A stretch of DNA of 64,000 nt from Mucilaginibacter defluvii. Its GTDB lineage: Bacteria; Bacteroidota; Bacteroidia; Sphingobacteriales; Sphingobacteriaceae. The translations under genes and the position numbers were made by a program. Location of the stretch: NCBI RefSeq assembly GCF_039543225.1, contig NZ_BAABJI010000002.1, forward strand, positions 930,001-994,000. The letters run 5' to 3'. Below are positions 31,792-45,930 of the stretch, one piece after another (the first letter of the stretch is position 1; each line of letters starts with the position of its first letter). The notes beneath the pieces were generated by a model. That model did no database searches, was not told where the DNA came from, and saw only the letters and a list, made by a program, of their open reading frames with translations.

Positions 31792-33237
31792 TCAATTTAC
31801 ATCAAACCAAAGCTTTGTAGTAAGTGCATCGGCCCCCTGATTGGCAACTGCGGCCCGGTAATTAGCACCATTCAATGATTGTTCCGTACCCGGATAAATA
31901 AACCTCACCGGTAACTTACCATCCAACACTCCTTGAACCGCAGGTTGCAGCACCGGGTAGTCAAGCCTGCGCCATTCAGCAAAAGCCTCCAGGCCCTGAC
32001 CAAACAATGCTATCCACTTTTGCTCGCCAATTGACTTTTTATAGTTAGCAGCGTTATATTGCACTTTTGGTTGCGCAAGGTAGGTGTCAACCGTACTCCC
32101 GCTAACACCATACTGATTGAAAGATGCCTGAATAGCCTGTTTATATAAATCTTCAGCATCTTCTGAGGTAAAACCGCGCGCGGCAGCTTCGGCCCGGTCA
32201 AATAATACTTCAGCATAACTTATAATAACTGCAGGCGCCTTTGGTGCTAAAAAGTAAGCACCCGGCTTTGATGTTTTAGTGAAGCCGATGTTACTGGCAT
32301 CACCTGGTAATAAACCATTGGGTAATCCTACATATTCGGCGGGTGTAGCAGCCGCAGTTTTGCTTATGTAAACAGGTAATCGAGGGTCGTTTAGATCAAA
32401 CAATTTGTCCACTATCGTTTTACTTACGCGATAATCATCCCGCGTGTCAAACAAATTACTTATCGGGTTTTGGTTAGGCGAATCCAGATACCCAAACTTA
32501 GCTATCTCATCGTTACTGCTAATGTATCCGCTACCTTCAGCGGCAATTTCCTGCAATACCTGCTTTGATTTTTCGGGCTCTCTATCGGCAATGCGCAAGG
32601 CGATACGCAAGCGTAATGAGTTGGCAAATTTTTTCCATTTTGTTATACTGTTGCCATATATTACGTCACCGGCAATAGCTTTACCAGCGGGATCAAGTGT
32701 TGCCTGGGCATTTTTCAGATCATCCAGCAAGGCAAAGTAAACATCCTTTTGTTTATCATAAGCCGGTGTTACAAATTGTGCAATGTTTGATGACTGCTTG
32801 TACGGTATATCGCCATAATTATCGGTAAGCAAAGTAAATACCCATGACCTTAATACCAGGGCTACACCCTTATAATTCGGATTGGGATTAACCTGTGCAT
32901 CAGCCAGTTTTATAATTTGGTTGAGATTATAGATACCCCTTGTATACCCTACCGTCCACAATTCCTGGAAGCCTGTATTGGTGTAAATATATCTGTCCGG
33001 ATCAGTGTACTGTATTTTAGCCCAGTGCTGCACAAATAGTAAACTGGCATCCATGTTATTACTTGTGCCCCAGTAGGTGTCGGCAGTTGCTTTTGATGCC
33101 GCGGTCAGCAAATATTCAGGCTGCGCCGTTTCAGATGAATTGGGGTTTTTATTGAGATCCGTAAGCTCTTTTTTGCAGGAAACCGACAATAACACTGCGG
33201 TGCCTGATATTAGCGTGGTTATATATTTAAGTTTCAT
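31792..33237 (-). CDS. SusD/RagB family nutrient-binding outer-membrane lipoprotein
   Basis: 481 residues. The lipoprotein signal ends LLSVSC with Cys at about residue 21, then Lys-Lys-Glu. TDLNKNPNSSETAQPEYLLTAA and the helical TPR-like body, with SYAEVLFDRAEAAARGF near the middle of the C-terminal half, fit the SusD-like group often found outside classical polysaccharide loci. It forms the lid of the SusC barrel at 33243, five bases upstream. No glycoside hydrolase is near. The shared leader carries a SAM-I riboswitch and a Cys-rich frame, so a sulfur nutrient is a plausible substrate (inference). Confidence 0.93.
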   Translation of the reverse strand: MKLKYITTLISGTAVLLSVSCKKELTDLNKNPNSSETAQPEYLLTAASKATADTYWGTSNNMDASLLFVQHWAKIQYTDPDRYIYTNTGFQELWTVGYTRGIYNLNQIIKLADAQVNPNPNYKGVALVLRSWVFTLLTDNYGDIPYKQSSNIAQFVTPAYDKQKDVYFALLDDLKNAQATLDPAGKAIAGDVIYGNSITKWKKFANSLRLRIALRIADREPEKSKQVLQEIAAEGSGYISSNDEIAKFGYLDSPNQNPISNLFDTRDDYRVSKTIVDKLFDLNDPRLPVYISKTAAATPAEYVGLPNGLLPGDASNIGFTKTSKPGAYFLAPKAPAVIISYAEVLFDRAEAAARGFTSEDAEDLYKQAIQASFNQYGVSGSTVDTYLAQPKVQYNAANYKKSIGEQKWIALFGQGLEAFAEWRRLDYPVLQPAVQGVLDGKLPVRFIYPGTEQSLNGANYRAAVANQGADALTTKLWFDVN

Positions 33238-33242
33238 TACAA

Positions 33243-36200
33243 TTAAAATTTAAGGTTAACATTAAAGCCAAGGTTGCGCACGGTTGGCAGGGTCAAATCT
33301 TCCAATCCCTGGCCGTTGCCCGTATTAAAAGCTGTTTCGGGATCGATGTTGGGCACGTTTTTATGAATGATCCACAGGTTACGGCCAACTATTGAAAATG
33401 TTGCCGACTGCAAGCCAATGCGTTTTACCCACTCAGAAGCGAAGGTATACCCCAGCTTAACCTCTCTTAATTTTACGTAAGATGCATCATACACAAAGGC
33501 CTCATCAACATTGGTGTAACCTTTATAATAAGCCTGTGCCGGTATTATAGTTGTATTGGCTGTACCATCAGCTTTAACGCCCTTAAATATCATACCATCG
33601 TTATACACTGTTTCGCCGTTAGGCGCTGTTGCGCCGCTGCCTACCAGTATAGCAGGTGTGGCATTATTGTTCCTGGCATAATAGTAGCTTAAACCACCGT
33701 TGGCAGTACCGCGCCCCGGCAGTGTTGAAGCCAGCACGCCGGTGTAAGTACCTGTGCGGTTGGTATTTGAATAAATGGATCCTCCAATTCGCGCATCAAC
33801 TAATGCGCTTAAGTGTATTCCTTTATAACTAAAGCTGTTATTAATACTGCCCAGCCAGTTAGGTGTGTATTTACCTAAAAACTGTTTGGTTGGATTAACC
33901 ACCGGAGTTCCGCTGTTGCTAACTATTATTTGTCCTGAAGCATCACGTAGATAAGCCGTGCCAAACAAGGTACCGTAAGGCTGGCCAATTGCCGCCAAAA
34001 CCTGTACAGTACGATTTGTACCTAAAATATAAGCCGGTAGTACACCCTCCTTATCAAGCGAGATAACCTTGCTGCGGTTTAATGAATAGTTAACGGTAAC
34101 ATCCCAGGCAAAATCTTTACCCTTTATTGGTGTACCCGCCAGTTGCACTTCTAAGCCTTTATTGGTGATACGGCCGCCATTTATCAAATTTTTATTAAAA
34201 CCGGTTGTAGGGCTAACTTCCACATCAAGTATCTGATCGTAGCTATTAGTGCTGTAAACGCTGACATCTAAACGTAAACGGTCCTTAAAAAATCCGAGTT
34301 CAACACCCGCTTCTGATGATGTGGTTGTTTCAGGTTTTAAGTTAGGATTCAGATTTATAGTGTTGGCACTTTGCTGCGGGTTAGTGCCAAACAAAGGCGA
34401 TGACAGGTAAGTGTTAAGTAACTGATAAGGCGTAGTGGCCTTACCTACTTTTGACCAGCCTCCACGCACTTTTAAATAACTTAATATATTGCTGTTAATA
34501 TCAAGCGCGTCAGAAAGTATCAAGCTACCGTTCACAGATGGATAAAAGTATGACAGGCTTGAGCTGGGTAGCGTTGACGACCAATCATTACGGCCGGTAA
34601 AATTTATAAAAGCATAATTTTTGAAACCTATTTGTCCGGAAACGAAGTAGCTGTAGGTTTTTAGCTTGCCGTAATAATTGGTCGACACGAGCGGATCGCG
34701 TGAGTTATTTACATTGTAAACATTAGGAACAGCCAGCTTTGGCGCTAACTGATCGTTCTGCTCATTAGTAATGGTGCTGATATTGCCACCGCCAAAAACA
34801 TCCAGCGAAAAATCGTCGGTTATTTTTTTGGTGTATTGCAGGCGGGCTTCGGTATTTGTTTCATTTACGTAGTAAGCATCTTCTTCATAGGAGCCAAATG
34901 GCGTACCGTTTGTACCGAAAGCCACCCTGATCTTCCGTCGGTCGTTATAAAAATCGGTAGTGGTTCGAAAGTTCACCGAGAACTCGCTGTTTATTTTGTA
35001 GTTCAGCTCAGCACTCCCGGTAAACCTGTTTTTAAGTTGCGATACCGTGTTTTCATACGCTACAAAATATGGGTTGCTATAATAGCTGTTGTTCCAGTTA
35101 AAAGTGCTGCCATCAGCATTACGATAATTTTTTAAGCGGTTTATATCAACCTGGCGGCCAAACCAGGTAAACTGCAACATGGTGCTGGTTGCACGTCTGC
35201 CGTAAGCGCCTGGCAAATTACCGGCATCGTCCTTAATGTAGCTTGCTGTGGTGTTAATGGTAAGTTTAGGTGTCAGTTTGTAACTCCCGTTCAGCAAAAA
35301 CGAGTTACGTCCCTGCGACGAATTAGGCACTACCCCTGTTTGATGCAGATTGTTGTAAGATATACGAAAGTTATGCTTGTCGCTGCTGCTTGATAAGGCT
35401 ACACCGTTATTAAAAGTAGCACCTGTTTTGAAAAAATCGCGCACATTGTTAGGGTGAGCAACAAAGGGTACAGCCTCACCATTTGAATAGAATTGCGGTA
35501 TCAGCGCGCCGTCTAACGCGGGCCCCCAACTTTCGTCAACTCCGTCGTTAACGCCGCCGCCCTTGCCATCAACATAACTGAATTTGCCATTGGAGCCCTG
35601 CCCAAACTGGTTTTGGTAATCGGGAAATACTTTTAAACTGGAAAATACCGTGTTTGAATTAATCTCCACCCCTATTCCCTTTACCCCTTTGCCTGACTTA
35701 GTCTTAATCAGGATAACACCAGCCGCCGCACGTGAACCGTATAGCGCGGCCGCGTTAGGCCCTTTAAGCACACTTACTGATTCAATATCCTCAGAATTAA
35801 AACTGGATATAGCATTCGCAAAATCGCGCGACCCATTGGTGCCCTGGAACTGAGAGTTGTCTACAATGATACCGTCAATGACAAATAATGGCTGATTATT
35901 GCCCGAAACAGAGGTTTCGCCGCGGATGATGATCCTGGAAGATCCCATATCGCCCTGGCTACCCGTTACCTGCACACCAGCTATTTTGCCCGACAAGGCA
36001 TTCACAAAATTTGTTTCGCGCGCCTCGGAAATATCATTTGATTTTACAGTTTGTACCGCGTAACCTAATGATTTTTTATCTTTCGATATATTTAAAGCCG
36101 TTACCACTACCTCATTCAGCGCGTTGGCTCCCTCGTCAAGTACAATGTTCAACGTAGTGGTATTTGCTGATACCTTTACCTCTTTAGTAGTGTAGCCTAC

Positions 36201-36431
36201 ATAGCTGATACTGATAATGTCATTCACTTTAGCATTGATAATGAACTTACCATCAACATTAGTTTGTGTACCTGTAGTAGTGCCTTTTACGGCAACACTT
36301 ACACCGGGTAGCGGCAACCCGTCTGACTTGGCCGTGATAGTTCCGCTTATTTTTACTGATTGCGCTACAACCGATTGCACAGCAAAAAGCAATAGCAACG
36401 CGGCTAAGGCCTGTTTGTATATTTTCAACAT
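33243..36431 (-). CDS. SusC/RagA family TonB-linked outer-membrane transporter
   Basis: 1062 residues. A signal peptide (LAALLLLFAVQSVVAQ) is followed by a carboxypeptidase-like domain (ISGTITAKSDGLPLPGVSVAVKGT in outline) and a plug with the SusC segment LNEVVVTALN and GSSRIIIRGETSV, QPLFVIDGI and VLKGPNAAALYGSRAAAGVI. The rest is a 22-strand barrel ending in Asn-Val-Asn-Leu-Lys-Phe. It imports a ligand captured by its SusD partner using TonB energy. Its mRNA leader of about 430 bases contains an S-box aptamer and a frame ending in Cys-Cys-Cys-Cys-Arg, so expression likely rises when SAM and cysteine are low. Confidence 0.96.
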   Translation of the reverse strand: MLKIYKQALAALLLLFAVQSVVAQSVKISGTITAKSDGLPLPGVSVAVKGTTTGTQTNVDGKFIINAKVNDIISISYVGYTTKEVKVSANTTTLNIVLDEGANALNEVVVTALNISKDKKSLGYAVQTVKSNDISEARETNFVNALSGKIAGVQVTGSQGDMGSSRIIIRGETSVSGNNQPLFVIDGIIVDNSQFQGTNGSRDFANAISSFNSEDIESVSVLKGPNAAALYGSRAAAGVILIKTKSGKGVKGIGVEINSNTVFSSLKVFPDYQNQFGQGSNGKFSYVDGKGGGVNDGVDESWGPALDGALIPQFYSNGEAVPFVAHPNNVRDFFKTGATFNNGVALSSSSDKHNFRISYNNLHQTGVVPNSSQGRNSFLLNGSYKLTPKLTINTTASYIKDDAGNLPGAYGRRATSTMLQFTWFGRQVDINRLKNYRNADGSTFNWNNSYYSNPYFVAYENTVSQLKNRFTGSAELNYKINSEFSVNFRTTTDFYNDRRKIRVAFGTNGTPFGSYEEDAYYVNETNTEARLQYTKKITDDFSLDVFGGGNISTITNEQNDQLAPKLAVPNVYNVNNSRDPLVSTNYYGKLKTYSYFVSGQIGFKNYAFINFTGRNDWSSTLPSSSLSYFYPSVNGSLILSDALDINSNILSYLKVRGGWSKVGKATTPYQLLNTYLSSPLFGTNPQQSANTINLNPNLKPETTTSSEAGVELGFFKDRLRLDVSVYSTNSYDQILDVEVSPTTGFNKNLINGGRITNKGLEVQLAGTPIKGKDFAWDVTVNYSLNRSKVISLDKEGVLPAYILGTNRTVQVLAAIGQPYGTLFGTAYLRDASGQIIVSNSGTPVVNPTKQFLGKYTPNWLGSINNSFSYKGIHLSALVDARIGGSIYSNTNRTGTYTGVLASTLPGRGTANGGLSYYYARNNNATPAILVGSGATAPNGETVYNDGMIFKGVKADGTANTTIIPAQAYYKGYTNVDEAFVYDASYVKLREVKLGYTFASEWVKRIGLQSATFSIVGRNLWIIHKNVPNIDPETAFNTGNGQGLEDLTLPTVRNLGFNVNLKF

Positions 36432-36459
36432 GATTTATTAATAATAAAGCAATAAACTG

Positions 36460-36481
36460 CCTGCCTGCTCAAAAAGGCAGG
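36460..36481 (-). terminator. Possible attenuator hairpin just before susC
   Basis: On the minus strand CCTGCC (36481-36476), loop of ten bases, GGCAGG (36465-36460), followed by an AT-rich AGTTTATTGCTTTATT tail, ending about 28 bases before the susC ATG. It could stop transcription or hide the start region; the U run is broken, so this is tentative. Confidence 0.45.
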
Positions 36482-36518
36482 TAAACTAATTGTAAGAATG
36501 ATTTAATGATATTCAGAA

Positions 36519-36559
36519 TCCGTTATATCACGGAACTAACATTGCAATGCAGCGTTAGT
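36519..36559 (-). promoter_or_regulatory. Hairpins after the poly-Cys frame, with an alternative partner
   Basis: On the minus strand ACTAAC (36559-36554) pairs with GTTAGT (36540-36535). A second copy of ACTAAC lies at 36590-36585, inside the frame just before the Cys codons, and could compete for the same GTTAGT. A small TCCGT/ACGGA hairpin (36534-36519) follows. Two copies of one strand on either side of the Cys codons fit a ribosome-controlled switch, but no folding was run. Confidence 0.45.
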
Positions 36560-36560
36560 A

Positions 36561-36662
36561 TTAACGGCAACAACAACAGGTGTTGTTAGTAATGTTGAGG
36601 TAATTAAAAGGGCAAATATTTGCAGCGTAGTAAATTTCTGTTTTTGTAAATGGTGTTTTCAT
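36561..36662 (-). CDS. Putative cysteine-sensing leader peptide (poly-Cys)
   Basis: A 33-residue frame between the SAM-I riboswitch and susC. It starts MKTPFTKTEIYYAANICPF and ends NITNNTCCCCR followed by TAA; the four Cys codons (36567-36578) are TGT TGT TGT TGC, one codon from the last sense codon. This is the layout of a leader peptide in which a ribosome stalls when charged tRNA-Cys is scarce. Poly-Cys leader frames acting as cysteine-responsive attenuators are known in mycobacteria. Translation here is inferred. An overlapping frame from 36668 (MYYENT...) lacks such a pattern. Confidence 0.65.
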   Translation of the reverse strand: MKTPFTKTEIYYAANICPFNYLNITNNTCCCCR

Positions 36663-36741
36663 AATACATTTTGAGTTATGAAATAGCCTTCATCGTTACC
36701 GGAGAAGCGCAGAAGCATATGATATACAATCACTATTGCCG

Positions 36742-36844
36742 CATTATCTTTTCTGCTTTTGGCAGACAGGAATTAGCACCTTTAATAAGTATTTAAGGTT
36801 GCTAAGACATCATCGGGCCTTTCCCTCCGTCTTTCTTGATAATG
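36742..36844 (-). ncRNA. SAM-I (S-box) riboswitch upstream of susCD
   Basis: The minus strand carries the S-box core in order: ATCAAGAAAGACGGAGGGA, GGCCCGATGATG, TTAGCAACC, then AAGGTGCTAATTCCTG. P1 is CATTATC (36844-36838) with GATAATG (36748-36742); P2 has AAGAC/GTCTT at its base; P4 is TCTGC-CAAAA-GCAGA. All hallmarks of the S-adenosylmethionine aptamer are present. It starts about 20 bases after a TACCTTTG promoter core. It would normally switch off downstream genes when SAM is high. The usual targets are methionine genes; here the gene is a SusC transporter 310 bases on. Confidence 0.95.
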
Positions 36845-36864
36845 ATCAATCAGCTATTTCAAAG

Positions 36865-36872
36865 CAAAGGTA
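36865..36872 (-). promoter_or_regulatory. -7 promoter box of the susCD leader
   Basis: TACCTTTG on the minus strand (36872-36865) matches TAnnTTTG exactly. A transcript starting 6-10 bases on would begin just before the riboswitch P1. No clean -33 TTTG is seen at the usual distance. The remaining 36873-37039 is AT-rich and shows nothing else. Confidence 0.6.
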
Positions 36873-37039: not shown

Positions 37040-38098
37040 CTATCTAAACGCATAAATTAGCGATAATCGTAGAGTATTGTCATTTGCACTACGACTCTTG
37101 GTAGATATGAGATAAGAAAGATCAAACTGCAACACATTGTACCGAAAACCGGCCCCGGCGGTTATATACTGTAAATTGTATTTTGAAGGAGCTGTAAAGA
37201 AACCGGTTCGCACCGCGAATACCCTATCATACCAATATTCTAAACCTGTACCTACAGAAAGGTTTATTGGTGAGAAAGACTTACCTATTGCTGAAGGCAA
37301 GCTCATATCATCATCTGCATTTTCAGGAATAAGTAGTTTATTGAAATCTAAAGACCAGGCCAGCATACTCTTTTCTGCTAATTGGAACTCAGCCGTACTA
37401 CCAACCTTTAGGTTTGCCGGAAGAAATGATCTTTGCGTTCCATAGCCAATATTGGTACCTAAGTTTGAAATATTTACCCCGAGCGCTAACTTGGCATCTT
37501 TAGCGAATAATTTTGCATCATCTTTAAAGTACATGCCAACCGTAGCAGCTATAGCGTTACCCGGCTTTATATCGAGATTGTTATAATTTCCGGAGCCCAT
37601 CGATGACCTGATGTACACGGCTGATAACGACATGGAAAAGTTGTTGCTCATCTTGCGTATATAGGCCACATCAATTGCCAGTTCATTGGCACGATATTGT
37701 TGTAACAGATCACCATAATCATTGGTAAAATCAATATCGCCTAATGAAAAATATCTGAGAGAAGCCGCCAGTGTTTGCCTTTCATCAAGAACAGTGTATC
37801 CAGATAAATTGGCCAGATATGCATCTTTCACACCCAAATTTCTAAACCATGGTGCATAGCTCACACTAAATGCAGTAGTATCAGCAGCAAAAGCCAGCTT
37901 TGACGCATTGTGGTATACCGCATTCGGATCGGCATCTGCAGATGTCGCTGCGCCAACATCGCCCATAGCGGATGACCTTGAATCGGGCACAATATTCAAA
38001 AAAGGAACAGCCGTTGTACTATTATTCTGTGCTGATAATTTAACGCTTAAGCTTAATAATAAAAGCATATAGCACAGCCTTAATAAATTTCTTTTCAT
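37040..38098 (-). CDS. PorV/LptO-like type IX secretion outer-membrane protein
   Basis: 352 residues with a signal peptide (MLLLLSLSVKLSAQ). The N-terminal mature part VPFLNIVPDSRSSAMGDVGAATSADADP and the YHNASKLAF segment are the PorV hallmark, followed by beta strands such as FSVSYAPWFRNLG and a final strand ending in aromatic-basic residues. PorV shuttles sorting-domain cargo to the attachment complex on the cell surface. It sits 50 bases after the 2593-residue cargo gene, so it may be a dedicated partner (inference). Core T9SS genes are not in the window. Confidence 0.88.
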   Translation of the reverse strand: MKRNLLRLCYMLLLLSLSVKLSAQNNSTTAVPFLNIVPDSRSSAMGDVGAATSADADPNAVYHNASKLAFAADTTAFSVSYAPWFRNLGVKDAYLANLSGYTVLDERQTLAASLRYFSLGDIDFTNDYGDLLQQYRANELAIDVAYIRKMSNNFSMSLSAVYIRSSMGSGNYNNLDIKPGNAIAATVGMYFKDDAKLFAKDAKLALGVNISNLGTNIGYGTQRSFLPANLKVGSTAEFQLAEKSMLAWSLDFNKLLIPENADDDMSLPSAIGKSFSPINLSVGTGLEYWYDRVFAVRTGFFTAPSKYNLQYITAGAGFRYNVLQFDLSYLISTKSRSANDNTLRLSLIYAFR

Positions 38099-38148: not shown

Positions 38149-41100
38149 TTATTGTTTTATCAATTTTTGGGTGATGCTATCTTCGTTATTAAAAGACAGA
38201 CTGTAGAAATAGAGCCCGGGGGTCATGCCTGACATGTTGAACTCGATTTTATAATTACCAATATTCTGGTTCTCCTTCACCAATGTGCGTACTACTTTAC
38301 CGGAAACATCAAATACGCGTAAAAGGACACTCCCACTTTTCGGCAACAAATATTCTATGGTAGTACTCGTTGCCACCGGGTTAGGATACGCTCGCAGGTT
38401 TTGATTGTTACCTGTAACAACTTTGAGCAACAGCGGTGCACTGGCGGTACCTCCGGCACCATCGTCAGTAATAATCATTACTGATGCGTCTCCTACTTTC
38501 AATGGTGTTATGGTAAGCTCGTTCCTTTCAACAGCAAGCCTTGCAACTGTACTATCATTTATGGCGGATGTATATCGCAGCGTATCACCGTCGGCATCTG
38601 TAAAATACTGGCCAAGGTTAATTCGCTTCAAACCATCAGCGATATTAATTACCAGCGAACCTGGTTGCGTAACTATAACCGGAGAATTATTGTTCCGGAT
38701 AACAGCGTTCACCGTCAGCGTGTCTACACCTCCTTGACCATCATCTCCAATTAACTTCAGAGTAGTGGTACCGGCGCGTAACGGATTAAATATGAATTCA
38801 TCGCCAACTGCGGACACCTGTAGTAACTGGCTGTTCGCAACTATAAACTTGTAAGTTATCGGATCGGAATCCGCATCACTGAACCATGGCGCCTGTTTGG
38901 CTCGATACACAATGCCGGTTCTAAGCGTGAGTTGCTGATCTATCGCGGCAACAGGAGGACGATTATTATTGACCACCTCTATGTTCAGTTTATACCCGGT
39001 AACATGCTGGTAAGCGTCTGTAGCGTTTACAGTTAATGAGTAACTGCCTGCATCTGCATAACCTGGCTTTAAATTTATCCTAACGGTGCTATCCGCTGAT
39101 TGAAAAGTTATCCATGCCGGGGCATTTGCTACAGAATATGTGATCTTATCTTTTTCAGGGTCTGTAGCTTGTAAAATAACCGTTGTATCCCGGCTTTCTT
39201 TAATACTAACCTGGTTACCTTGCGGAACTTTTACAAACGCCGGCGGTTGATTGAGTTGGAATGTGAGTGCAACCGCATCCCGGTTTTTCACGGGGTCATT
39301 CCCATTAACGATGACTTGTGCACGGTTTTCCGGGTTTTGAGTATTGGCTGCTGTAAACTTTATGTCAACAGTTTTCTTGGTACCATTTGCCACAGTTCCT
39401 TTTAATGGCGAGGCTATGTTAACCCATCCGTTGTTGCTGTTATCATCGGCTATTGCTTTAACCATAAAGGCAGTTTTATTTAATCCGTCCTGCGAGGCCA
39501 GGTCAACCCACATCCAGTTCAACTCATCAAAAAAGAAGAAGGTGCCAGGTAAAGATTCAGTTAACTCTGTAACACCCTGCGGAAATTGCACCCCAAGCGG
39601 ATAATTGATAAGGACAAAGAATTTCTCGTTCGGATATATTTTTTTAACATCCGACAGAGAAAATGTTTCAAACGAACCTTTGTCCGGTACGCTGCGCTGA
39701 ATTTGAAAACGCTGGGTATGTATTCGCCTGGCAGTAGTAATATCTTCACCCGCCCATATTTCAACATTGACGGCTGCCGATGGCGTATTCTCCAGCATCA
39801 TATAGGTTTGCACTTTCGACAAATTGAATCCATCACTTCCAGCCACAAAAGCTGTGGCTGTCCAAAATGCAGTGCCAACACCCATGCCCAAGAATCCATC
39901 TGTATGGGTAGCATTATCATACTCCAGTACATTTGAGGCCGCATTAACTACTGGGTTAGTTAAACGGCTATATGTATTGTTGCGCGTTATTGGTTTTCTT
40001 ATCACTTTCGAGGCTACGGCGGCACGCTTTCTGCTTTTAGCCAATCCGCCGATCTCCAGATCGCCTGTCGGTTGTTCGTCCTGACGCTCGTATTTGATAC
40101 TCAGGTCATACGTCAATTCTGATTGGCCCTTAGTATTGTCAATAGTAAATGACTTATTCACTACATCTGTGGCGGTATTCGCGCGGGCTATGATACTTTT
40201 TTCGTAAACTGACATTACCGGCGGGTATGCAACAGTTCCCAGAATCCTGATCGGCTTGATTTGTGCATTGCCGGCTATTGTAAGAGTATTGTTAAACACA
40301 ATGGGCTTTGTACCATCAACCACTAAGCGAAACAAGGCCGTTTCGTTAGTAGTAACTGTTAACTGCTCGTTTGGCAATACATCATTTACAGGCGTCCAGA
40401 TTGTATCCAGCCCAAAATTGCTCTGCACTTCTTTACCTGACTCCAAGCTAAGGGAGGCGCTATTGTTAAACGCCATGCTATTTATGATAAACGGCGCATT
40501 GCCGGAGTTTACAATGTCAAAATAGGTGTAAGTGGTTCTGTTCTCAGCGCTTATCATGACCGTACCGACATTTATGGTATCAGGTATCACGACAAGTGGG
40601 GCGCCACTTACTGATAATGATACCGGTATTATAACATTTGCATTTGACGGGGTATTGTTTTGTAATGTAAGGTTGGTATTATACTCACCTGCACTGAGTG
40701 TTGTGGCATCAAATTTAAGATCATAAACTTTTGATTGCCCGGCCGGGATGCTTAATTTATAAGATGGCTGGAAAGCTACAGCGAGCTTATTGATAATAAA
40801 TTCTTTATCCCTCGCCACAAGTACCCCTGAGGTACCGTCGTGGTTTTCAATCCCTACCAACGGGCTCCTTATCCAAAATTCAACGCCCCACTCATCGCCT
40901 ACACCGTTATATTGAAATTTAAAAGTTCCGTTTTTATATAAAATGATCTGGAAGGAAATATTACCCCCTGCGAATGCTGAACTGGATATAAAGTTTTCAT
41001 AAGATATAACTACCTTATCATCAAAGTACTTATAAAATATTCCTGACGATGCCTTTGGTGCAGTAACATCTATACCGCCACGGGTAAAGCAAGGCGCAAG

Positions 41101-44100
41101 ATAAGTGTTAGGCGCCTCGGCAGATGGTAATTCAGATGGTCCGAAACGGGATGCTTCCGGTATAGTATCTGTAAATGATATAGCACCCGCCCATAATCCA
41201 ATGTAAACTTTTTTGTATTTCTTTCCATAATACTCAAATTCAAATGGAAGTTCAATAGCTTTTGATGTTTCAGGGCTGTTTCCGCTATAATCTATCCGGG
41301 TGCCCTGTTTTATGAGATCTATCCACTCAAACTTTGGCCCGTCGGCACTACGGCTGTCTGTCCAGCTATAGGCAGGTGCCGACTTAGTATCTTTTTTGTC
41401 ATACAAACTTAACCAGTGAGCGGCTGTTGGAATAACTTCCAGCGAGGCCTTTCCGGCACTGTTATCAATTGTAAGCTGTCTTTCTTTGCTCTCACCCGCC
41501 GCAAGCGTTTCAGCTATTGGCTTGATTTCAACCGATATGGCCGGCGAAGGAATAACTTGTGCTTTTATTTTTACTGTAAGTAATTTTGCGTTGGCAGGCT
41601 TAATAGTTAAAACATCATTATAAACGCCTACTGCTTTTGTTGAATCAATTCGAAGATCAATGAATACTTTGCTTTTTGCCTTAACAACAAAACTTTTTTC
41701 ACCTGAAAAGGTAAAATGTCTATTGCCAAGACTTACCGATTCAATCTTCAACTGTGCCGTCCCTGTATTGCTTAGTACCACAGTACGTTCACCAGTACTA
41801 CCTTGCTGCAACTTGCCAAAATCAATTTGCGTTTGGTCGAGCGCCAAAGCTGTGGTGCCGCCTTTAGCGTTAACTTTTACAGTTAAGTATGCTGATTGAC
41901 GCTGAGGATCATTAGTAAACAGCGTAATATTTTGTGTATGGCTACCCTCAGTTAAACTATCCGTATTCAGCTTAAGTGTTACCGGCTTACTGGCACCAGG
42001 AGCTATAATTCCATCCGGACTTGAAAATGCTGTAACCATTTCAGCGCCGGGACTGACAATGTTTACAACCGTTTTATTGCTGATGTTTACAGTTGTTGAC
42101 AGGTTTTGAATCAGCAACGCATCTTCCCTGTCAAAACCTTCTACGGCAACAAAGTAATCAGTTAAACCGGTTTCATCAACCTGATCATACAGGTATTGTA
42201 TATTACCTGTATCAAATACAATGATCTGAAAAGTTGCAGGCTTTGTAGCTTCATTAAAATAATTAGAGTAAACGTTTTTGTATTCAACTATCAGTTTGCC
42301 GGGTTCGCGTTTATAATACACATGGCCACCTTTATTGAAGTCGTATGGTATATAACTTGCTGATATATAACCGTTAGGCATATAGTCCGCTTTAATATCC
42401 GGAGTGCTGCTGTTTGAAAGATCAGCAAAATTATCGCAAGTAAGTGCTCCGCGCCGTGTAATAAATAACTTGTCAACCTTACGGCCAAAAAAATTGATGG
42501 AAAATCCGAGATCTACTGCGTAGTAGTAGGAGTTGATAGGTTTAAACGTTTCTGTGATATCTTTGCCATCTGTGCTTATTTCCGTCCAATTATATCCTTC
42601 TCCGGTTACTTTAAAAGAATAACCATAGGTACTCACCTTTTTCGGATCTACTTCGTCAAGAACCTTTTTGGAAAATTTTGGTGCGACATACTTAAGTGGA
42701 TACTTTCCGGTGTTGGTAATTGTAAAAGCAGCCGATGCAGTATCGCCGATGGCAAGATCAAAGCTTCGCTCAGCCGGCTCAATTTTTAATTGCGCAGGTT
42801 CCGCAGCAACAGCAAACAGGCTTAACTGGTACTTAAGTCCTTTATCATCGGTAAGCGTTAAACTTGCATTGATAGTACCCACCCTTTCAGGTTTAAATGT
42901 CAAAAGTATATCGGTCTGGCTACGGGCTTGTATTGTGCCGGGATCATTTATCGTGAATTGCCCGTCCGAAGCGTTAACTGAGGCGGTGCTGTAATTGCCA
43001 TAGCCTTTATTTTCCAATCTCACTGAAACCTGTTTTTGCTTGCCGATAAATACGGTCCCGAATTCAACAATATCTGGCAGATTCAGCTCCGGCTGCCGGT
43101 TGGTAACCTTAACATCAACCGGTATGCGTACTTCTTTTTTTGCCGGGTCATTACTGTTAATAACAATTACATTTGAGTAATTGCCATTTACCAGATTAGC
43201 AGCATCAACATGCGCATTTACGGGTGAAAGCGCCTTGGGATTTCCTTCGATCTCACCTGAAGATGGGTCAAGCGTAATAAATTCACCGTTATGCGGTTCA
43301 AGGCTTTGGGCCATTACATTCCATGCAAAGCCATCAGCAGCAATTGCATTGGCCAGTGTAGTCCAACTTGCTCCGGTGTCAAAGCTCATGAGAAAATAGC
43401 CCGATGGTGTGGTCTCATTAATCAGATAACCCATACCCAACGGATATTGGTTACCTGCAGGTGTGTGAATTACTATCCAAAATTCTTCATTCTGATTAAA
43501 ATTCACCTGTTGATCAAGCCTTATAGTATAATACTCTTGCACCGCAAGTGATGGTGTTGTCTGTGAATAAATCAAATTTTCAGGCTCCGGCTTTACGCCG
43601 CCTTTAAAAACTTCTACAACTATTGGTACATCAGCCTTTTTTATGTTAAGGTAAGCGCGCACATGGGTTAGGTTAAAACCCTGATCACTGTTAACGATAA
43701 ACTTCGTTGCAGATGAGTTTGGTACAGATAGATCATTATCTCCGATAACGTTGGTAGGAAAATCGGAATAGTACATCTCAATAGGCTCAAAGGCCATAAG
43801 TTTAGGTTTAATCGTGGTGCGAACCGCTGTTGCCCTTACCATACCTACCCTGTGCTTTACATTAGCTTTAGAACCGGTACTTTTTAACGTCCGTGCTTTA
43901 GCGCGCGCCATGTCAATTTCCGTTGCTCTTTGTCGAACAATGGTATTCCATAATAAATTTCCGGCACCGGCATTAGCAATATTGAAACTATTGGTTGCGT
44001 TAAGGCCGGTTTTAGCATCAAGATTAAAAGCAAGAGAGGATTTATCAACACTAATTACCGGGCCTGCCGTTGTACTCGCCTCTATAATATTTGAAAGGTC

Positions 44101-45930
44101 AGAAACATTATTCCAACGGTCAATGGCAACCACAGCGAAATAATACTTGGTTAAAGGTGATAATTTTTCGAACGTGTATTCTTTTAATGTTCCTGCAGCT
44201 TCCCAGTTGCGTAATACAATATACCGCGACTTGCTTAGTGTTGCTGAAGTGATCGGCTTAGTATCGTAATATAAGCGTAACGTAGCTGGATAATTATCGT
44301 CACGATCGACCGGCACTTTAAAGCTAACGCTTATAGCATCCTGCGTAGCGGAAGTGACTGCGAGATCATTTACCCTTTCTGGTCTTGCAAGATTATTTGT
44401 TTTCAAGGCCAGTTCGGCATCAGCATAACCGGCGCCCAGGTTACCCACGTCATCAGGGTTAGCTTCATAAACATTTTTCACACCGGTGAGAATATGCTGT
44501 TTGAGCTTTTCCGCGGTAAATCCCGGCCCGCCATATTTTGATACGACCAGTGCCGCTATACCGGCCACATGCGGGCAAGCCATTGATGTACCCTGGAAAT
44601 ATCCGTAACGATTGTTAGGTAGTAAACTTAAAATGCCATCCTCATTGCCGGTTGTTTGCTCACCGCCCGGAGCAGATATATCTACCCAGTTGCCGTAATT
44701 AGAAAAATAGGTACGTACGTTGTTTTTGTTGAGTGCGGAAACAGCAATAACCTCGTCATAATAGCCTGGGTACCATTGTCCGTCAGCGCCGCTATTGCCT
44801 GATGCAAATAGTACCAAACCACCCCGCATAGGGCTGCCGGGATAGCGCCCGGCTTCGGCAACGAAGTATTTAATCGCTTCATGAATTATCTGTTCATCAA
44901 CACCTGGCGCATTGTAACCCCAACTGTTTTGGGATATTACCGCGCCATTATTTGCAGCGTATATGTAAGACAGAGCAATGCTCTCAGGTGAGGCCCCCCC
45001 CAATATCTTTAATGACATTATCCGCGCGCCATCGCCTTTACCTGTTCCGCCTGCCACTCCGGAGACACCAATGCCGTTGTTGTTTACCGCTGCTATGGTA
45101 CCCGCTACGTGCGTTGCGTGGTCGTCAGGGTCAATAGCACCACTTTCAGTTACATAATTATAACCGTTGATATCATCTACATAGCCATTTAAATCATCGT
45201 CAACCCCCGGCTTACCGTTGGCTTCGGCCATATTTATCCACAAATTGGCTCTAAGATCTTCATGCCTCACATCCATGCCCACATCATGTACCGCTACTAT
45301 TACATTGGCCGATCCCTTCGTTATCTCCCAGGCTTTAACCAGATTAATGTCTGCACCCGGTGTACCGCCGTTCTGTCCGGTATTGTTATAATGCCATTGT
45401 TGTGAAAAATATGGATCATTTGGAAAATTTGCGGCAACTGAAGATCTGTTCAGCGGCGTCACCACTTTTGTACTGCCCGGCAGATAGCCATCATTTAGCT
45501 TCTTCTCGTAAACAGGCTGTGCTACGGTGATTTCTGAAAGTTTACTGAATGCAGTTATGGCCTGCTTTACATCAACGTTTGGATCAAATGTCAATTTATA
45601 CCAAAGATGCAAACCATGCCTGCGCAATTGTTCTTCGTGCTTAGCATCGTATGGGAATACGCGCTGCATTGCTGTGGCCTTGTAACGCTGAGCCACCACG
45701 TCAAGGGCAGATACACCTGTAACGAGTTTACCGCTTTTAGCAGATATCGCACGTGATCCAACCTTAGATTCAATTTGCGGTGCTAATTTGATGTTTACGA
45801 CGCCACGCAAAACACCATTGCTAAAAATGGAAGCCTGGGCTTTTTGCTGTGCCTGTACGCTGAAGCAAGCGGCAGACATGATAGGCAGTACTAAAAGAAG
45901 TTTTAGTGATTGAAGTAAAAGTTTTTTCAA
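38149..45930 (-). CDS. Giant S8 subtilase with type IX secretion sorting domain
   Basis: 2593 residues. A signal peptide (ending about residue 27) is followed by a propeptide and an S8 catalytic domain with the triad Asp in VAVHDVGMD (about 216), His in DDHATHVAGT (about 271) and Ser in GTSMACPHVAG (about 447). Next come an FN3-like domain and a long series of beta-sandwich modules, two kinds of which occur twice (a SDGFNL-type and a FYGKKY/FFGRKV-type). Cadherin-like repeats (DPEKDKITY, DADSDPITY, DADGDTLRY) precede the C-terminal sorting domain (YPNPV...GLYFYSL...KLIKQ). It is likely surface-bound or released, and its substrate is unknown. Confidence 0.93.
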   Translation of the reverse strand: MKKLLLQSLKLLLVLPIMSAACFSVQAQQKAQASIFSNGVLRGVVNIKLAPQIESKVGSRAISAKSGKLVTGVSALDVVAQRYKATAMQRVFPYDAKHEEQLRRHGLHLWYKLTFDPNVDVKQAITAFSKLSEITVAQPVYEKKLNDGYLPGSTKVVTPLNRSSVAANFPNDPYFSQQWHYNNTGQNGGTPGADINLVKAWEITKGSANVIVAVHDVGMDVRHEDLRANLWINMAEANGKPGVDDDLNGYVDDINGYNYVTESGAIDPDDHATHVAGTIAAVNNNGIGVSGVAGGTGKGDGARIMSLKILGGASPESIALSYIYAANNGAVISQNSWGYNAPGVDEQIIHEAIKYFVAEAGRYPGSPMRGGLVLFASGNSGADGQWYPGYYDEVIAVSALNKNNVRTYFSNYGNWVDISAPGGEQTTGNEDGILSLLPNNRYGYFQGTSMACPHVAGIAALVVSKYGGPGFTAEKLKQHILTGVKNVYEANPDDVGNLGAGYADAELALKTNNLARPERVNDLAVTSATQDAISVSFKVPVDRDDNYPATLRLYYDTKPITSATLSKSRYIVLRNWEAAGTLKEYTFEKLSPLTKYYFAVVAIDRWNNVSDLSNIIEASTTAGPVISVDKSSLAFNLDAKTGLNATNSFNIANAGAGNLLWNTIVRQRATEIDMARAKARTLKSTGSKANVKHRVGMVRATAVRTTIKPKLMAFEPIEMYYSDFPTNVIGDNDLSVPNSSATKFIVNSDQGFNLTHVRAYLNIKKADVPIVVEVFKGGVKPEPENLIYSQTTPSLAVQEYYTIRLDQQVNFNQNEEFWIVIHTPAGNQYPLGMGYLINETTPSGYFLMSFDTGASWTTLANAIAADGFAWNVMAQSLEPHNGEFITLDPSSGEIEGNPKALSPVNAHVDAANLVNGNYSNVIVINSNDPAKKEVRIPVDVKVTNRQPELNLPDIVEFGTVFIGKQKQVSVRLENKGYGNYSTASVNASDGQFTINDPGTIQARSQTDILLTFKPERVGTINASLTLTDDKGLKYQLSLFAVAAEPAQLKIEPAERSFDLAIGDTASAAFTITNTGKYPLKYVAPKFSKKVLDEVDPKKVSTYGYSFKVTGEGYNWTEISTDGKDITETFKPINSYYYAVDLGFSINFFGRKVDKLFITRRGALTCDNFADLSNSSTPDIKADYMPNGYISASYIPYDFNKGGHVYYKREPGKLIVEYKNVYSNYFNEATKPATFQIIVFDTGNIQYLYDQVDETGLTDYFVAVEGFDREDALLIQNLSTTVNISNKTVVNIVSPGAEMVTAFSSPDGIIAPGASKPVTLKLNTDSLTEGSHTQNITLFTNDPQRQSAYLTVKVNAKGGTTALALDQTQIDFGKLQQGSTGERTVVLSNTGTAQLKIESVSLGNRHFTFSGEKSFVVKAKSKVFIDLRIDSTKAVGVYNDVLTIKPANAKLLTVKIKAQVIPSPAISVEIKPIAETLAAGESKERQLTIDNSAGKASLEVIPTAAHWLSLYDKKDTKSAPAYSWTDSRSADGPKFEWIDLIKQGTRIDYSGNSPETSKAIELPFEFEYYGKKYKKVYIGLWAGAISFTDTIPEASRFGPSELPSAEAPNTYLAPCFTRGGIDVTAPKASSGIFYKYFDDKVVISYENFISSSAFAGGNISFQIILYKNGTFKFQYNGVGDEWGVEFWIRSPLVGIENHDGTSGVLVARDKEFIINKLAVAFQPSYKLSIPAGQSKVYDLKFDATTLSAGEYNTNLTLQNNTPSNANVIIPVSLSVSGAPLVVIPDTINVGTVMISAENRTTYTYFDIVNSGNAPFIINSMAFNNSASLSLESGKEVQSNFGLDTIWTPVNDVLPNEQLTVTTNETALFRLVVDGTKPIVFNNTLTIAGNAQIKPIRILGTVAYPPVMSVYEKSIIARANTATDVVNKSFTIDNTKGQSELTYDLSIKYERQDEQPTGDLEIGGLAKSRKRAAVASKVIRKPITRNNTYSRLTNPVVNAASNVLEYDNATHTDGFLGMGVGTAFWTATAFVAGSDGFNLSKVQTYMMLENTPSAAVNVEIWAGEDITTARRIHTQRFQIQRSVPDKGSFETFSLSDVKKIYPNEKFFVLINYPLGVQFPQGVTELTESLPGTFFFFDELNWMWVDLASQDGLNKTAFMVKAIADDNSNNGWVNIASPLKGTVANGTKKTVDIKFTAANTQNPENRAQVIVNGNDPVKNRDAVALTFQLNQPPAFVKVPQGNQVSIKESRDTTVILQATDPEKDKITYSVANAPAWITFQSADSTVRINLKPGYADAGSYSLTVNATDAYQHVTGYKLNIEVVNNNRPPVAAIDQQLTLRTGIVYRAKQAPWFSDADSDPITYKFIVANSQLLQVSAVGDEFIFNPLRAGTTTLKLIGDDGQGGVDTLTVNAVIRNNNSPVIVTQPGSLVINIADGLKRINLGQYFTDADGDTLRYTSAINDSTVARLAVERNELTITPLKVGDASVMIITDDGAGGTASAPLLLKVVTGNNQNLRAYPNPVATSTTIEYLLPKSGSVLLRVFDVSGKVVRTLVKENQNIGNYKIEFNMSGMTPGLYFYSLSFNNEDSITQKLIKQ

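Follow-up and report, generated by a model that had tools for sequence, protein, structure and literature searches.

The leader of a susCD operon in the soil bacterium Mucilaginibacter defluvii raises the question of whether one transcript can place a transporter behind two sulfur sensors. The locus lies in a 64,000-nt stretch of the genome, here called the window (contig NZ_BAABJI010000002.1, positions 930,001 to 994,000), and its features are collected in Table 1. Read 5′ to 3′ on the minus strand, the order is -7 box, SAM-I aptamer, short upstream ORF (uORF), hairpin, susC and susD. The initial annotation had placed an aptamer, a poly-Cys frame and a hairpin in one leader. Aptamer and frame were both borne out: the aptamer matches model positions 1-108 of 108 (E 8e-21; gathering score for RF00162, 44.4), and the frame is an ATG-initiated ORF, separated from the aptamer by 78 nt, that ends CCCCR-stop. 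At a permissive threshold no Rfam family other than SAM-I was found in the window leader, and the 33-aa leader ORF has no match among NCBIfam profiles. The next gene upstream (window 37040-38098, minus strand) encodes PorV of the type IX secretion system (NF033710), and beyond it lies an ORF of 2593 residues (38149-45930, minus strand).

Table 1. Elements of the susC leader and operon, in window coordinates.
Feature	Position	Strand	Evidence or remark
-7 promoter box TACCTTTG	36865..36872	-	perfect match to TAnnTTTG
SAM-I (S-box) riboswitch aptamer	36741..36845	-	RF00162, 92.4 bits, full length
Cys-run leader ORF MKTPFTKTEIYYAANICPFNYLNITNNTCCCCR-stop	36561..36662	-	ATG start, 33 codons plus stop; orthologues in relatives; shuffle test
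Four tandem Cys codons, TGT TGT TGT TGC	36567..36578	-	one codon before leader-ORF stop
Predicted hairpin, uORF Cys codons and stop within its 5′ arm	36520..36579	-	-14.4 kcal/mol; weak
Terminator-like hairpin CCTGCCTTTTTGAGCAGGCAGG, tail partly T-rich	36460..36481	-	weak
susC, SusC/RagA-family TonB-linked outer-membrane transporter	33243..36431	-	TIGR04056, 614.6 bits
susD, partner lipoprotein (SusD-like_2)	31792..33237	-	PF12771, 389.5 bits

Promoters of Bacteroidota carry a -7 box with the consensus TAnnTTTG. In the window this box (TACCTTTG) begins 27 nt 5′ of the aptamer, and there is no second match on the same strand between 36432 and 37040. From the box to the uORF ATG is about 200 nt, hence the uORF is not leaderless. 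A match to the consensus starts 25-37 nt 5′ of SAM-I in 64/64 leaders, the window included, and none was found between aptamer and uORF in the same 64; five further matches, about 550 nt 5′ of susC, fall inside a redoxin gene. By this consensus, then, the proposal of one leader with two sulfur-linked elements is upheld.

We surveyed relatives for SAM-I and Cys-rich frames upstream of susC, and the result was strongly positive. SAM-I lies upstream in 63 of the 79 susC orthologues that have upstream DNA, although these loci share ancestry and their counts are not independent. The aptamer directly precedes the uORF and susC in 42 of the 63, while a redoxin gene (AhpC-TSA/Redoxin in Pfam, with a signal-like N-terminus) intervenes in 19 and the cysteine desulfurase gene iscS in two. 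The uORF adjoins susC even where another gene parts susC from SAM-I; an early impression that it was missing where redoxin follows SAM-I was rejected, since it sits between redoxin and susC. An ATG ORF with a run of at least two Cys codons near its stop was found in 9/9 Mucilaginibacter SAM-I-susC leaders (0.27 expected from dinucleotide shuffles), and a run of at least three in 8/9 (0.01 expected). Among 50 Mucilaginibacter susC leaders, 45 have a run of at least two near the uORF end, one of them (L255) doubtful, leaving about 44; in four of the other five the uORF ends in a single or interrupted Cys. The survey was done gene by gene because a nucleotide-level search for CCCC(R/S)-stop in 301 genomes gave about 150 matches listed, compared with about 20 for a reversed control, and most of those fetched were out of frame or intragenic. 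A gapped promoter-to-uORF pattern gave no matches and was uninformative.

The sulfur codons crowd towards the uORF stop. Cys accounts for 29% and Met for 12% of the final 14 residues of the susC uORFs, compared with 1.9% and 1.0% in the body; across uORFs the enrichment of the two residues is roughly 10- to 25-fold. A frequent Mucilaginibacter ending is MQ(S/N)M(R/H)CCC-stop, and the stop directly follows the last Cys in 37/44 Mucilaginibacter susC uORFs. Both Cys codons are used (TGT 96, TGC 78). Two conserved stretches were also seen in Mucilaginibacter susC leaders L226-L274, TTCTTTACA(A/G)TT and, closer to susC, CTGTATYGG, between which long-distance pairing is possible. In several relatives SAM-I also occurs upstream of a peroxiredoxin-like gene (MSLRIGDDAPNF...; L072, L096, L107, L132, L136, L137, L140).

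The same pair precedes metY. In the Sphingobacteriaceae 23 of 30 metY loci have SAM-I, and a Cys- or Cys/Met-rich uORF lies between SAM-I and metY in 23/23 of these and in 0/7 of the loci lacking SAM-I (Fisher p ~5e-7, computed by hand from these counts). The M. defluvii genome itself has the uORF MKYLFSIPENVLQHNQYGLNPYCCMCMCCC upstream of metY in the same arrangement with SAM-I. The last 14 residues of the metY uORFs are 35% Cys and 9% Met (body, 1.3% and 0.9%), and the last Cys codon abuts the stop in 18/23. Its presence in SAM-I-metY leaders links the uORF to the metabolism of sulfur amino acids without recourse to the transporter. Judged on sequence, the pairing of SAM-I with a Cys-run uORF is real, and more general than first proposed. 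Outside the family, a Cys-rich uORF was absent from 27 readable SAM-I leaders across the class, most of them upstream of metH.

Other Cys-run ORFs were noted along the way. In M. defluvii, the uORF MEKFLHTANSKMLNIGFNINCCCTCCCC (L357/L365; C2 near 695823, minus strand) lies ahead of another susCD pair, after which come genes for three membrane proteins that match no Pfam family and for a putative sulfate exporter of the YeiH family; a longer open frame overlaps this uORF, and none of the genome's SAM-I aptamers maps to the locus. The uORF MTTQNIIGSIMRMPLCQGVMCCCC (L348/L364; C1 near 931267, minus strand) lies 64 nt 5′ of a serine carboxypeptidase gene (Peptidase_S10), and its -7 box starts 19 nt before the ATG, making it near-leaderless, like those of mycobacteria. 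In another Mucilaginibacter genome (G162, L062) a 14-codon ORF, MLRSSPLFCCCCCR, stands before a further TonB receptor-like gene; there is no SAM-I, and a -7 box lies 64 nt 5′ of the Cys run.

The putative output step of such a leader is clearest in Pedobacter. Many Pedobacter susC leaders had seemed to lack the uORF, a reading that was rejected: an orthologous ORF ending RM(R/C)..C is present at the same place (MKKTDELK...FRMRMPC-stop and similar). Among 20 distinct sequences of the 24-residue form R19, M20 and C24 are invariant, and dN/dS is 0.59, indicating weak purifying selection. Here SAM-I is followed by an intrinsic terminator (GCACTTCTGATTTAAGGGGTGC plus T run) and then by the uORF, after which a large subset of leaders carries a second terminator. 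Intrinsic terminators follow SAM-I in 37/45 leaders (1.2 expected from shuffles) and the uORF in 21/45 (1.9 expected). The 5′ arm of the second includes the last Cys codon and the stop (CCTGTTA...TAACAGG plus T run); its stem is conserved and its loop variable, and the stem is so nearly invariant that there is little covariation. Codon sensing would be weaker in Pedobacter, because many of its uORFs end with just one Cys plus one or two Met, and the conserved R-M motif could point away from tRNA sensing, to a sequence-specific arrest peptide. Pedobacter susC leaders (e.g. L209, L213, L219) also share a conserved block, TGGAATTGCTTTGCC, which has a T-rich tail and lies a short way 5′ of susC.

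No such terminators stand out in Mucilaginibacter. Intrinsic terminators follow SAM-I in 1/29 leaders (0.7 expected), and T-tailed hairpins follow the uORF in 5/44 (3.4 expected), neither an excess; no expression platform was found after SAM-I in the window or elsewhere in the genus. The hairpin that the initial annotation saw before susC is present, about 28 nt before the susC ATG, and is the sole terminator-like site in the region, for which shuffles give 0.5 expected; its supposed role is not supported by conservation, because orthologous leaders show no excess. Pairing of the Cys codons with downstream RNA does not exceed chance in shuffles of Mucilaginibacter or metY leaders, which leaves the predicted hairpin over the uORF end (36520..36579) weak. 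Pairing of these codons with ACAGCA just after the stop, suggested for Mucilaginibacter by eye and by consensus folds, failed the shuffle test.

We consider it probable that SAM-I and a ribosome-read Cys/Met uORF act in series on a single transcript to gate susCD. Such a transcript would start about 15 nt 5′ of the aptamer and meet two sulfur checkpoints before susCD. At one, SAM bound to the aptamer would lower read-through. At the other, a ribosome would translate the short ORF, with its Cys and Met codons packed against the stop. With ample Cys, and perhaps Met, the ribosome would finish and leave, and susC expression would be shut down; when charged tRNA is scarce it would stall at the end of the ORF, its footprint would cover the adjacent downstream RNA, and susC would stay on. 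In Pedobacter the RNA under the stalled ribosome would be the 5′ arm of the second terminator, while in Mucilaginibacter, the window included, Rho or translation are candidate targets. That sulfur codons lie at the stop in all groups suggests, by analogy with the copper-responsive leader protein CruR, that a stalled ribosome covers something just downstream. The transporter would then be made at low SAM and with charged Cys-tRNA in short supply. The initial annotation had proposed this joint logic; such an AND gate is plausible and fits Pedobacter, where two predicted intrinsic terminators in series lend it structural support, but the Mucilaginibacter leaders offer neither a conserved hairpin nor an expression platform. 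The annotation's naming of cysteinyl-tRNA may be too narrow, since Met, like Cys, is abundant in the uORF tail.

The two elements can come apart: redoxin or iscS lies between them in 21/63 loci, and uORFs lacking a SAM-I partner are found in some Mucilaginibacter as well as in Ferruginibacter, Segetibacter and Paraflavitalea. In some of these relatives the uORF has a -7 box to itself, about 60-75 nt on its 5′ side. Such separability would suit an arrangement in which SAM-I governs the whole transcript, with redoxin or iscS, and the uORF alone sets susC, with no joint logic. We think such separate action unlikely: the window and the 42 direct loci have nothing between the elements and a single promoter box, and the metY uORF occurs only together with SAM-I. 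The chance is slim that the Cys-rich nascent peptide is itself a sensor, of copper, of another thiophilic metal or of thiol redox, and controls a TonB-linked metal transporter in the manner of CruR in Bordetella, itself a uORF that precedes a TonB-dependent transporter, encodes a Cys motif and stalls ribosomes at its end (PMC9426467). The redoxin gene in many SAM-I-susC operons would agree with such a sensor. The peptide bodies, however, differ freely from one another, with Cys and Met gathered at the end, and the uORF, its 33-aa window form without NCBIfam match, lacks the CXXC-plus-RAPP layout. A like uORF moreover precedes metY in every SAM-I-metY leader, and we know of no metal role for this methionine-synthesis gene.

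It is very improbable that the UGU/UGC repeats serve as an RNA motif, bound by protein or structural, instead of being read as Cys codons. The nucleotides TGT TGC TGT do recur, and the last TGT is invariant in Pedobacter, where it lies within the stem. Against this, the run continues the frame of an upstream ATG and finishes at the stop or next to it, the use of both Cys codons is joined by an enrichment of Met codons, and the Pedobacter ORF is under purifying selection, if weak. We return, then, to serial gating by aptamer and translated uORF. The presence of SAM-I together with neighbouring redoxin or iscS genes points to a sulfur role for susC. A broader form, in which a double gate across the Sphingobacteriaceae controls both metY and a SusCD system importing a sulfur compound, with the uORF sensing Cys and Met at the stop and the stalled ribosome covering downstream RNA, is a tentative reading, to which we give a little less than an even chance.

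Each half of the pair has known counterparts. Poly-Cys leader ORFs are described upstream of actinobacterial cys operons, where the Cys runs lie close to the stop codon and a clear terminator is missing (PMC1262725). Such leaders are reported for cys operons of Mycobacterium and Propionibacterium and for cbs of Bifidobacterium (PMC1262725; Canestrari et al., 2020, as cited by others), and cysteine-responsive translation attenuation in Mycobacterium smegmatis is reported by later work cited in two further papers (PMC13236596; PMC9094748). The present uORFs resemble these in being short, with a Cys run near the stop, upstream of sulfur genes, and the mycobacterial leaders likewise have no conserved terminator, Rho having been suggested. 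They differ in being in Bacteroidota, in lying 3′ of SAM-I, in not being leaderless at the window locus, in an enrichment of Met too, and in their targets, a TonB-linked transporter and metY. The aptamer is, by Rfam score, a full SAM-I (RF00162), and in Pedobacter an intrinsic terminator comes after it, as in the classic form; it differs in being followed by a second, putatively ribosome-based sensor, and in Mucilaginibacter by no terminator.

Tandem T-box plus SAM leaders of Bacillota, e.g. that of ssuABC (PMC12452182), also combine a SAM aptamer with an aminoacyl-tRNA sensor in one transport-operon leader; there the RNA reads the tRNA directly, whereas here a translating ribosome would. CruR (DUF2946), encoded before BfrG in Bordetella, is an exported protein of 145 residues; it senses copper, carries CXXC and RAPP motifs, and acts through a stalled ribosome that blocks Rho downstream (PMC9426467). 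The likeness lies in a uORF directly before a TonB-dependent transporter and in end-of-uORF stalling that, in CruR, blocks downstream termination, whereas the present ORFs have only about 24-60 codons. We found no paper in the open-licence literature on SAM-I with a Cys uORF, on either element controlling susC, or on poly-Cys leaders in Bacteroidota. SAM-I and poly-Cys leaders are each known, and their combination, of which the initial annotation knew no case on a TonB-linked transporter, appears unreported, such absence being weak evidence.

If the proposed gating is true, cysteine-codon attenuation would extend from Actinobacteria to Bacteroidota, and a natural metabolite riboswitch and a translating ribosome would work in series within one leader in many genera. 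Glycans are the assumed cargo of many SusCD systems. The present family would have a likely sulfur role, made directly testable, and its redoxin and IscS partners suggest candidate substrates: cystine, glutathione, or another thiol or disulfide compound.
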